From: Alicyclobacillus sacchari
GTDB taxonomy: Bacteria > Bacillota > Bacilli > Alicyclobacillales > Alicyclobacillaceae
NCBI RefSeq assembly: GCF_004366795.1
Contig: NZ_SORF01000005.1
Location: 124,001 to 188,000, forward strand
Reading direction: 5' to 3'
Length of the DNA stretch: 64,000 bases
A program made the position numbers and the translations under genes. Shown here in pieces: positions 2,596-46,434 of the stretch; the stretch's first letter is position 1, and each line of letters opens with the position of its first letter. The notes beneath the pieces were generated by a model. It saw only the letters and a program-made list of their open reading frames with translations. It did no database searches and was not told the DNA's origin.

Positions 2596-3801
2596 TCACA
2601 GGGTCTTTTTCAGCAACAAGGTGTTGGCCTGCGGCCGGCCCGCCTCCACGAATCCAAGTCGTTGGTAAAAGCGTTGCGCGCGTTCGTTGTTGGTTTGTAC
2701 ACACAACTGCAACATCGTGCAGCGAAGCCGTCTGGCTTCCGCTTCAAGCCATGTCATAATCGCTCGGCCCATGTGTTTGCCCTGTTGATCCCGCCGCAGG
2801 ACGATGATATGCAAGTGCAAGTGGCTGCCCTGCCGCTCATACGAGACAAATCCCTGTAGACGTCCGTCTTGATCCTGTACCGCCAACGAGATCGATCCTC
2901 CTGCACACAAATCTTGGGGATTGACACGGCGCCCCCACGCCTCGAGCAGAATGGGATCCATCTCAGCTGCCACGAGTCGGACAAGTTCACGCTTATCGAC
3001 CTTTCCGGCTGGAACGAGTACAACTTCTCCCAGGCGAATAACCTGCGGCCTCTGCGCGGATCGCGTGATCACTTCTGCCGCGCCATCGTGCACGATCACG
3101 GTATCCTCGACGTGTACGCTCAAATCGCCATACATCGTTACGTCCGCCCAGCCGTTCTCCGCCCGCCGGGCATGGCGGCTGATCTGCGCGATGACCGGTT
3201 CAATTGCCAAGACCATCCCTTCGCGCAAGCGAGGCCCGAAGCCTGGCGGGCCAAAATTAGGCAGCCACGGTTCCTCGTGCAAACTTCTTCCCGTGCCATG
3301 CCCCACAGCCTGCCGAATCACGCGCATGCCGGAACGCTTTACGATCACGCCGATCGCATGCGAAATATCCGAACATCTGCCGCCGGCCACAGCATGTTCG
3401 ATCCCCGCCGCTAACGCCGTTTCCGCGACCTCAATCAGGTGAAGAGTCTCCTCTGTACCGTCCCCTACGACGTACGATCGCGCGGCGTCAGTCATCCAGC
3501 CATCGACAGCGACGGCGATGTCCACCTTGACGAGGTCGCCCGCCTTGAGTCGATATGATCCCGGTACACAATGTCCAATCTCACTGTTGACCGACACGCA
3601 AATCTCGCCCGGAAAGCCGTTCACACCCTTGATGGCCGATCTCGCCCCGCATTGGCGCATCGCCGCGATGGCAATTTCCTGCAATTCGCCAGTCGTCACA
3701 CCGGATCGCATGGCCTCGGCCACAGCGCCATGCACTCCGCCATTGGCCCGCCCGCAAGCGCGCAACGCATCCAACTCACCGCCTGTTCGCACCTCAATCA
3801 T
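2596..3801 (-). CDS. Methionine aminopeptidase fused to a GNAT acetyltransferase
   Basis: A 401-residue two-domain protein. Residues 1 to about 248 are a type I methionine aminopeptidase that would remove initiator Met: all five metal ligands are present (Asp94, Asp105, His168, Glu201, Glu232), as are the substrate His77 and His175 in GHGTGRSLHEEP. Residues about 255-401 are a GNAT N-acetyltransferase, with the acetyl-CoA loop RRDQQGKHMG (337-345) and the motif B stretch NNERAQRFYQRLGF (371-384). The ATG at 3801 is 9 bases after AGAGGGGAG; longer starts at 3825 and 3885 lack a ribosome binding site. It is divergent from a peptide deformylase, which points to N-terminal protein processing. The acetyltransferase substrate is unknown; coupling to exposed N-termini is inference. 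Confidence 0.9.
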   Translation of the reverse strand: MIEVRTGGELDALRACGRANGGVHGAVAEAMRSGVTTGELQEIAIAAMRQCGARSAIKGVNGFPGEICVSVNSEIGHCVPGSYRLKAGDLVKVDIAVAVDGWMTDAARSYVVGDGTEETLHLIEVAETALAAGIEHAVAGGRCSDISHAIGVIVKRSGMRVIRQAVGHGTGRSLHEEPWLPNFGPPGFGPRLREGMVLAIEPVIAQISRHARRAENGWADVTMYGDLSVHVEDTVIVHDGAAEVITRSAQRPQVIRLGEVVLVPAGKVDKRELVRLVAAEMDPILLEAWGRRVNPQDLCAGGSISLAVQDQDGRLQGFVSYERQGSHLHLHIIVLRRDQQGKHMGRAIMTWLEAEARRLRCTMLQLCVQTNNERAQRFYQRLGFVEAGRPQANTLLLKKTL

Positions 3802-3942
3802 GTCGGCACGCTCCCCTCTTAGCATCGATACGCGTACCGCTACATACGCGCAACAGGCTGTTGGCATGGGTGGTCGCTTGGTCAAACGTCACGCCAGCTG
3901 CATCTTATAGAGATCGATAAATGACAGGATGGAGGAACCGAT

Positions 3943-4704
3943 GTGCCCATACAGCCTATTTTGCAAGGGGATATCCCAGAACTGCGTCAGATCTCACAGC
4001 CCGTGACGCAATTTGACAACCAGCTTGCCGAGCTTGTCGCAGATCTCATGGATACACTGGAAGCCCACCGCGGTCTTGGACTGTCCGCCCCCCAAATCGG
4101 CCGTCTGCAAAACGTCTTTGTCGCGGATACAGGCGATGGCGTGCAGGTATTTGTCAATCCCACGCTGCACGAGCCGTGTGGATCCGCAAAAGCGTACGAA
4201 TCATGCCTCAGTTTCCCCGATCACGCCTTGTGCATCGAACGCCCCACACGCGTGATGGTACGAGCGCAGGACATCCATGGTACGCCGTTTGAAGTGGAAG
4301 CCACCGGTCTCTTAGCGCGCGTCGTCTGCCACGAGTACGATCACCTGCAAGGCGTCTTGTTCATCGACTATCTGAGCGAGGAAGAACTCTTCGAACAGCT
4401 TCTGACAAACGCCTACGTTGTGGACGATGACGAGACAGCGACTCCGCCCCAGCCGCCGACCGATACCGACGCTGTGGCCGGCGCGATCGCGGAGGAGAGC
4501 CGGCAAGAGCGACAAATGGTGGTCGACATGCTCGCGGAAGTCTCTTGGAAATTGGTGCTTACCATCGACATGTTGCGGGAAGATGCAACGGGTTGGACGG
4601 ACGGCGTCAACTGGCGCATGCTGAACAAGGCCAGTCAGGCGCTGGAAGCGACAGTCGATCTGCTGTCGGAACGCCTTTCGACAGATGGAAGGCTGCAGGA
4701 GTAA
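3943..4704 (+). CDS. def: Peptide deformylase with C-terminal extension
   Basis: Predicted to remove the formyl group from N-formylmethionine. The three deformylase motifs are present: GLGLSAPQ (44-51; Ala to Ser), ESCLS (86-90; Cys88 is the metal ligand and Gly of EGCLS is Ser), and HEYDH (130-134; HExxH). The catalytic domain ends near residue 148; about 100 more residues follow, with an acidic Pro/Thr linker (about 155-185) and a predicted helical tail. The total, 253 residues, is long for the family (about 150-200). The GTG start lies five bases after GGAGGAA; the ATG two bases earlier is out of frame. Divergent from the MetAP-GNAT gene, so both steps of N-terminal maturation are encoded together. 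Confidence 0.9.
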   Translation: MPIQPILQGDIPELRQISQPVTQFDNQLAELVADLMDTLEAHRGLGLSAPQIGRLQNVFVADTGDGVQVFVNPTLHEPCGSAKAYESCLSFPDHALCIERPTRVMVRAQDIHGTPFEVEATGLLARVVCHEYDHLQGVLFIDYLSEEELFEQLLTNAYVVDDDETATPPQPPTDTDAVAGAIAEESRQERQMVVDMLAEVSWKLVLTIDMLREDATGWTDGVNWRMLNKASQALEATVDLLSERLSTDGRLQE

Positions 4705-4752: not shown

Positions 4753-4774
4753 GACAATGGAAGACAATTTGGAT

Positions 4775-4859
4775 GCCACTAGGGGAGCGCTTGCTGAGAC
4801 GGAGGATGGCTCCGGACCCTTAGCACCTGATCTGGGTAATACCAGCGTAGGAAAGTGGC
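4775..4859 (+). promoter_or_regulatory. TPP riboswitch (THI element)
   Basis: The conserved THI-box blocks are in order: AGGGGAGC, GCTGAGA (4793-4799), GGACCCTT, ACCTGATCTGGGTAATACC and GCGTAGGAAAGTGG. The closing stem P1 is GCCACT (4775-4780) with AGTGGC (4854-4859). It precedes tenA-thiD-thiM-thiE, as expected for thiamin pyrophosphate feedback. Downstream, GCCTC (4911-4915) can pair with GAGGC (4925-4929) and hide the tenA ribosome binding site, which suggests translational control; there is no T-rich terminator. A 14-base palindrome at 4872-4885 lies between aptamer and start. Confidence 0.96.
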
Positions 4860-4935
4860 TCGGCTCACGCTGCGGATCGATCCGCCGACTGGGCCGTTTC
4901 CCCCTTGTTGGCCTCGAACTATAGGAGGCTGGAAC

Positions 4936-16141: not shown

Positions 16142-16166
16142 CAAAACAAACCTTTCCTCGAAGGTT
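16142..16166 (-). terminator. Candidate attenuator terminator below the cobalamin riboswitch
   Basis: On the minus strand AACCTT pairs with AAGGTT around CGAGGA and is followed by TGTTTTG. It lies between the aptamer and btuF, so it may be the off-state of the switch. The stem is short (6 bp), so this call is moderate. Confidence 0.5.
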
Positions 16167-16175
16167 GGCTCGTAA

Positions 16176-16350
16176 ACCGCTGGGCAGGTCTCCTGGCTCA
16201 CAGGTTCATGCTACATCCTTCCCACCGAACGGCAGTGGATTGCAGCATGTGCCTCATGCGAGGCTTCTATCCTGTTCACAGTGGCGGGACCGCATCGGAT
16301 TTGCACCGATTTCCCTATTCTCTTCGCGACGCGCGAAGCACCTAGCGGCT
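16176..16350 (-). promoter_or_regulatory. Cobalamin riboswitch
   Basis: Reading the minus strand, the class-I core is complete: CCGCT and AGGTGC, AATAGGGAA, CGGTGCAAATCCG, CGGTCCCGCCACTGTGA, CCACTG, GGGAAGG and the B12-box GAGCCAGGAGACCTGCC, closed by AGCGG. It precedes btuF-btuC-btuD-cobU-cobS and should lower their expression when adenosylcobalamin is plentiful. The cobT-bluB and pduO genes lie upstream and are outside its direct control. Confidence 0.96.
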
Positions 16351-16367
16351 GATTCAGTTCGCCTTTC

Positions 16368-45996: not shown

Positions 45997-46025
45997 CTGA
46001 TAAGCGAACGGTATGTATTAGGTAC

Positions 46026-46434
46026 GAAGAAGCAAGCCTGTAAGCCGAGTTCTGTACTCCTGTGCTGCAAGCGGCACGCACGTGGCGGCCTCGCACGTTG
46101 GAGCAGCAATCATCTATCTAGGCCGACTGTTGCCAGTCGGCTCAAGCGACCAACCCGAGTGCGTGGCGGGCCACCACATCAGCACTCCTATCCGGTCTTG
46201 CTCCAGGTGGGGTTTACCTAGCCAGCCCGTCTCCGGACTGCTGGTGCGCTCTTACCGCACCGTTGCATCCTTGCCTGTGCCTGCATCAGGCCATCGGCGG
46301 TCTTCATTTCTGTGGCACTTTCCCTGAGATCGCTCTCGCCGGACGTTATCCGGCACCCTGCCCTGTGGAGCTCGGACTTTCCTCCCGTGCTGCCTTTCGG
46401 CCATGCACCGGCGATTGCCCAGCTTACTTCCTCG
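46026..46434 (-). ncRNA. rnpB: RNase P RNA, type A
   Basis: Minus strand shows the universal core: GGAGGAAAGTCCGAGCTCC, CAGGGCAGGGTGCCGGATAACG, GAAGACCGCCGATGGCC, GGTAAGAGCGCACC and, near the 3-prime end, AGTACAGAACTCGGCTTAC. The ends GAGGAAGTAAGC and GCTTGCTTCTTC pair as helix P1. The catalytic RNA matures tRNA 5-prime ends. Type A layout, in contrast with the type B of Bacillus subtilis, is my reading of the order of helices. Confidence 0.96.

Follow-up and report, generated by a model that had tools for sequence, protein, structure and literature searches.

A methionine aminopeptidase–GNAT fusion paired with a second, tailed peptide deformylase in Alicyclobacillaceae

Introduction

Can a single bacterial locus bring together the enzymes that deformylate, trim and acetylate protein N termini? 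In eukaryotes, NatA acting with MAP1/NAC or with MAP2 couples Met excision to acetylation at the ribosomal tunnel exit, as an excerpt of PMC12830823 describes. Bacteria show less N-terminal acetylation than eukaryotes; for those of their proteins that have been characterised it is described as post-translational, and a co-translational route is also considered possible (excerpt of PMC8556138). One bacterial example is YfmK of Bacillus subtilis, reported in part of PMC12299546 to acetylate the initiating Met of HBsu. The limited set of literature that we searched yielded no description of a methionine aminopeptidase (MetAP) fused to a GNAT acetyltransferase.

Here we analyse such a fusion from Alicyclobacillus sacchari, in a 64,000-nucleotide stretch of DNA (the window). 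The locus fuses a Met-removing enzyme to an acetyltransferase fold, and the enzyme of the preceding step, peptide deformylase (PDF), is encoded alongside. What is new is the combination, together with a tail on the PDF, and not the enzyme chemistry. We give a probability of roughly one half to the reading that the locus encodes an accessory module for N-terminal maturation, with PDF, MetAP and GNAT acting in sequence and the tail as a partner of the GNAT.

Results

Architecture of the locus

The first-pass annotation proposed a MetAP–GNAT fusion lying head to head with a PDF, and Pfam domains on both open reading frames confirm this. One frame matches Peptidase_M24 (E 1.4e-39) and Acetyltransf_1 (E 8.7e-15), and the divergent frame matches Pep_deformylase (E 9.2e-42). 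The fusion had been read from a TTG at 3885, which makes it 28 codons too long. Homologues align from residue 29 of that frame and an ATG at 3801 follows a Shine-Dalgarno-like GAGGGGAG; hence the protein has 401 residues and the intergenic gap is 141 bp (Table 1). Loci of this architecture, at ~40% identity, also turn up in other genera and in a second family, which rules out chance or an assembly artefact.

Table 1. Features of the locus, in window coordinates.
Feature	Position	Strand	Basis
MetAP–GNAT fusion gene, 401 aa, ATG at 3801	2596..3801	-	Pfam, NCBIfam; start from homologue alignment and Shine-Dalgarno
MetAP domain, residues 1–248; H77, D94, D105, H168, H175, E201, E232	3058..3801	-	23/23 loci; TIGR00500
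GNAT domain, residues ~254–401	2599..3042	-	Pfam Acetyltransf_1; GNAT strand/helix order in model
Putative acetyl-CoA P-loop, residues 340–345, QGKHMG	2767..2784	-	Consensus from an excerpt of PMC8556138
Divergent intergenic region with ribosome-binding sites of both genes	3802..3942	.	141 bp
Second PDF gene, 253 aa, GTG start at 3943	3943..4704	+	Pfam, NCBIfam
PDF catalytic core, residues 1–150; Q51, C88, H130, E131, H134; motif 2 ESCLS	3943..4392	+	
PDF tail: linker, then probably a helical hairpin with invariant W202–K203	4393..4701	+	

The same genome carries a stand-alone MetAP (G000:C3:49191) and a separate PDF (C6:40506) immediately upstream of fmt. The locus enzymes are therefore second copies and not the only ones in the cell. 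They have catalytic residues and family models in common with stand-alone bacterial PDF and type I MetAP. Unlike these, the locus has a GNAT joined to its MetAP, a tail on its PDF and a divergent arrangement of the two adjacent genes, and ordinary copies lie elsewhere in the genome.

Distribution and linkage

A profile built from 19 fusions found the full architecture in 21 of the 41 genomes of the family Alicyclobacillaceae; a 22nd match, G029, has the MetAP only and is excluded from this count. The check suggested at the outset, for the fusion and its PDF neighbour across the family, was thus positive in roughly half of the genomes covered. One scan of contigs returned three loci, two of them fusions. 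Alicyclobacillus hesperidum and A. tengchongensis are two relatives that carry the fusion. The fusion is present in 21 of the 59 genomes of the order and in 13 of the 398 genomes of a class sample. Two of these 13 belong to another family, where they represent 2 of the 14 genomes of their order. No fusion other than the window's own was found in a phylum sample (1/398 genomes). Both samples were drawn from larger groups, and the fusion may occur more widely. We count the 20 of 41 family genomes without the fusion against the maturation-module reading. Close relatives do without the locus, so that species with and without it, as well as deletion strains, would allow a direct test of the acetylation question.

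The two genes stay together. A complete divergent PDF adjoins the fusion at 22 of 23 loci; at the remaining one (L052, genome G024) the PDF is cut off by the end of the contig, and another contig of that genome opens with a PDF-plus-tail fragment (L094). When open reading frames were grouped over 21 loci, the fusion was recovered at 21 and the PDF at 19, an overlap filter having dropped the PDFs of L042 and L052, both of which are present. Other neighbours vary, and no other gene family is found at more than 7 of the 21 loci. The gap between the divergent genes, which depends on the start codons chosen here, falls within 129–153 bp at 12 of the 18 loci measured; at the others it is as long as 472 bp.

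Catalytic residues of MetAP and PDF

The MetAP domain scores above the type I equivalog cut-off of TIGR00500 (216.3 versus 171.35 bits). The seven residues listed in Table 1, which we take to be the metal ligands and the two catalytic His with roles as in E. coli MetAP, are identical at all 23 loci. F63, L174 and W218 are likewise invariant, and C68 is kept at 22.

The PDF lies above the cut-offs of TIGR00079 (114.8 versus 103.95) and NF001159 (128.6 versus 125). Q51, C88, H130 and H134 are present at 23 of 23 loci and E131 at 22, with L094 substituting for L052 in the PDF counts. Motif 2, for which the PDF consensus is EGCLS, reads ESCLS in the window; the residue preceding the metal Cys is Ser at 18 and Gly at 2 of the 23 loci, and the one following it is Leu (15), Ala (7) or Met (1). 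The exception at the HExxH Glu is locus L022, whose PDF (137–916, -) has Ala (GCC) there, two bases from either Glu codon. It adjoins an intact MetAP–GNAT in a genome that is 62% complete. This PDF without its catalytic Glu counts against the maturation-module reading.

All parts of the locus are under purifying selection. In comparisons of the window with its two nearest relatives, at dS near 1, dN/dS is 0.06–0.23 overall: 0.06–0.07 for the PDF core, 0.12–0.14 for MetAP, 0.14–0.15 for the GNAT core and 0.19–0.23 for the tail.

GNAT domain

The GNAT domain is well above the Acetyltransf_1 cut-off (55.5 versus 20.7 bits), and the predicted model has a complete GNAT order of strands and helices in a region of moderate confidence. 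The predictions drew on three near-identical sequences and are of low confidence overall (mean pLDDT 46.3 and 38.4); we used them with caution and for nothing beyond the GNAT region and the apparently helical tail of the PDF. V368, Q369, N372 and Y379 are found at all 23 loci. The nearest other GNATs in these genomes are solo proteins of ~213–322 residues that have the VQ..N pattern and lack the Tyr; one of them, in the window's own genome, is L061 1396–2082 (-) on contig C4.

The P-loop is more variable. Measured against the consensus Arg/Gln-x-x-Gly-x-Gly/Ala (excerpt of PMC8556138), it is complete at 17 of 23 loci and begins with His at three (L048, L051 and L089). The first Gly is missing at the other three, namely the window, where QGKHMG has His in its place and departs from the consensus, and L040 and L041, which have QGRQRG. 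Low dN/dS in the window's clade indicates that the altered loop is not simple decay. Acetyl-CoA binding by the GNAT of this clade is nonetheless putative, and the loss of the first Gly here is counted against the maturation-module reading.

These features raise the alternative that the GNAT of the window's clade is noncatalytic, its role being to bind the tail or to support assembly with it, which leaves PDF and MetAP as the only active enzymes. Such a role would fit the altered P-loops, the long branch of the window-clade GNAT (1.33) and the dN/dS of 0.45 for linker plus GNAT between the window's two near relatives, L037 and L038 (GNAT core 0.25). The L022 PDF, retained without its Glu, also illustrates that parts can persist for structure. 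We nevertheless consider it improbable, given the Tyr, VQ and N kept at 23 of 23 loci, the first Gly kept at 20 and the low dN/dS of the window's GNAT core.

All 21 GNAT rows scanned match the NCBIfam model of RimI, the ribosomal protein S18-alanine N-acetyltransferase, but the window's GNAT falls below the equivalog cut-off (46.9 versus 86.4 bits) and so is only distantly RimI-like. RimI, moreover, is not fused to MetAP. The nearest solved structures and families are mixed and include streptothricin, polyamine and aminoglycoside acetyltransferases as well as Ard1 and RimI, and Foldseek matched many kinds of GNAT with no one substrate class. The sub-threshold RimI score and the mixed function of the PDB relatives count against the maturation-module reading. 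They would suit a GNAT that acetylates something other than nascent N termini (lysines, a polyamine, another small molecule or one dedicated protein), its link to PDF and MetAP being one of shared regulation or stability, all the more as the genome has a separate RimI that scores above cut-off (147.7 bits). This alternative has difficulty, however, in explaining a MetAP fusion and a divergent PDF across two families, and we regard it as unlikely, if less so than a noncatalytic GNAT.

A conserved tail on the deformylase

The locus PDFs are extended C-terminally by ~70–130 residues, consisting of a variable linker and then a conserved stretch that, according to the low-confidence model, is probably two helices. 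Its W–K pair is invariant in 21 aligned rows. No relative of the tail was found in the PDB up to E 1, and Pfam gave scattered sub-threshold matches, each in 1 of 17 members. Within the family the tail is present in 22 of 41 genomes, exactly the 21 fusion genomes and G029, using a model without G029; with G029 in the model, 14 of the 398 genomes of the class sample have it, namely 13 that carry the fusion and G029. In the searches made, the tail is thus a domain without a relative outside these loci.

Phylogeny and a broken-up module

The locus PDFs group in a single clade (91/87; recovered in 92% of 200 bootstrap trees). The locus MetAPs together with the MetAP of G029 form another (100/100), whose branches are long. 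A further 13 stand-alone MetAP rows were sampled in the family; 12 fall in a separate clade and one, L114 of genome G006, has a very long branch and was left out of a second MetAP tree. Identical rows were collapsed in the trees. PDF and MetAP trees share six groupings: own, L040 and L041 with L042; L045 with L056; L048, L089 and L051; L053 with L055; L049 with L090; and L087 with L088. L022 is discordant, its MetAP grouping with L053/L055 and its PDF with L048/L051/L089, and it is long in both trees; this discordance counts against the maturation-module reading. So does a flat mirror-tree test of four domains over 16 loci, in which partial correlations of 0.16–0.37, with bootstrap standard deviations of 0.12–0.18, did not discriminate. 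L041 (a near copy), L044 and L052 (absent from the tail alignment) and L087–L090 were left out of that test.

G029 shows which parts of the module stay together when it breaks up. No fusion was found in this genome, and its single PDF match is of ordinary length, with no second PDF. A MetAP of the fusion clade, with intact catalytic residues, is encoded at 2.56 Mb (L058). A solo GNAT at 4.25 Mb scores 169 bits against the fusion GNAT profile, where other solo GNATs tried reached at most 94.5. Divergent from it and 374 bp away is a 98-residue gene, preceded by a Shine-Dalgarno, that encodes the tail alone (E 2.8e-7).

The G029 MetAP lies inside the fusion clade, and a tree grouping the 22 fusion rows without it is rejected (AU p 0.0086). 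This suggests that the G029 module split after the fusion had formed, with the qualification that the G029 row is long-branched and the GNAT tree unresolved. A small gene near this stray MetAP (L058 4345–4659, +) resembles genes near the fusion in L040, L041 and L047. The resemblance hints weakly that the MetAP has remained at the original site and that GNAT and tail relocated as a pair. Because GNAT and tail are still side by side in a genome where PDF and MetAP have parted from them, we regard the two as functional partners; physical contact between them is something we infer.

The G029 arrangement also bears on a quite different explanation. PDF and MetAP are known antibiotic targets, both are present here as second copies, and antibiotic inactivation is common among GNATs, with such families appearing in the domain matches. 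The locus might then supply inhibitor-tolerant enzymes against natural PDF and MetAP inhibitors, together with a GNAT that inactivates the inhibitor. Yet the tail remains with the GNAT in G029, where the second PDF is absent; a PDF without its Glu is retained in L022; and neighbours differ between loci, with no common biosynthetic neighbour seen. We consider inhibitor tolerance very improbable.

A possible N-terminal maturation module

In the favoured reading of an accessory maturation module, the second PDF would take off the formyl group and the MetAP domain would take off Met. The GNAT on the same chain would then acetylate some of these proteins at the freed amino group. As a dock or adaptor, the tail of the PDF would partner the GNAT and so unite both gene products in a single working assembly. 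The activities, N-terminal acetylation, substrates, timing and ribosome association in this scheme are what we infer from the genes. The first-pass annotation had suggested that all three steps could be coupled at this single locus. Conserved divergent linkage, co-occurrence, the kept catalytic residues and the GNAT–tail pair of G029 support the coupling.

A more specific and doubtful version, though one we would place ahead of any of the alternatives, is a two-protein complex with three active sites in which the PDF tail docks on the GNAT, with GNAT and tail as a separable core, and which deformylates, removes Met from and acetylates nascent proteins at the ribosome. If true, the docked complex would be a bacterial counterpart of the eukaryotic MetAP–NatA assembly. 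The NatA–NAC–MAP1 and NatA–MAP2 systems, as an excerpt of PMC12830823 presents them, likewise join Met excision to a GNAT N-terminal acetyltransferase. Those are separate proteins that meet on the ribosome. In the present locus a single chain holds both MetAP and GNAT, there is a deformylase as well, and complex formation and ribosome binding are predicted features.

Intergenic motif and surroundings

RNAalifold predicted no conserved RNA structure in 10 of the 18 intergenic regions. By eye, we read a motif, GAAACGGGCA, in 7 of the 18 (L042, L043, L044, L045, L046, L049 and L056; L043 and L044 do not differ from each other); an imperfect inverted repeat often comes after it. It was not found in the intergenic region of the window or its clade. 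The motif may be a promoter or operator element, possibly a shared regulatory site.

Past the PDF gene, at 4771–4870 (+) of the window, is a TPP riboswitch (72 bits) upstream of a TENA-family gene; the frames that follow are presumably thiamine genes, resembling ThiD, ThiM and ThiE as labelled by eye. The window also holds a Cobalamin riboswitch at 16166–16360 (-; 108.4 bits) and an RNase P class A RNA at 46025–46430 (-; 302 bits).
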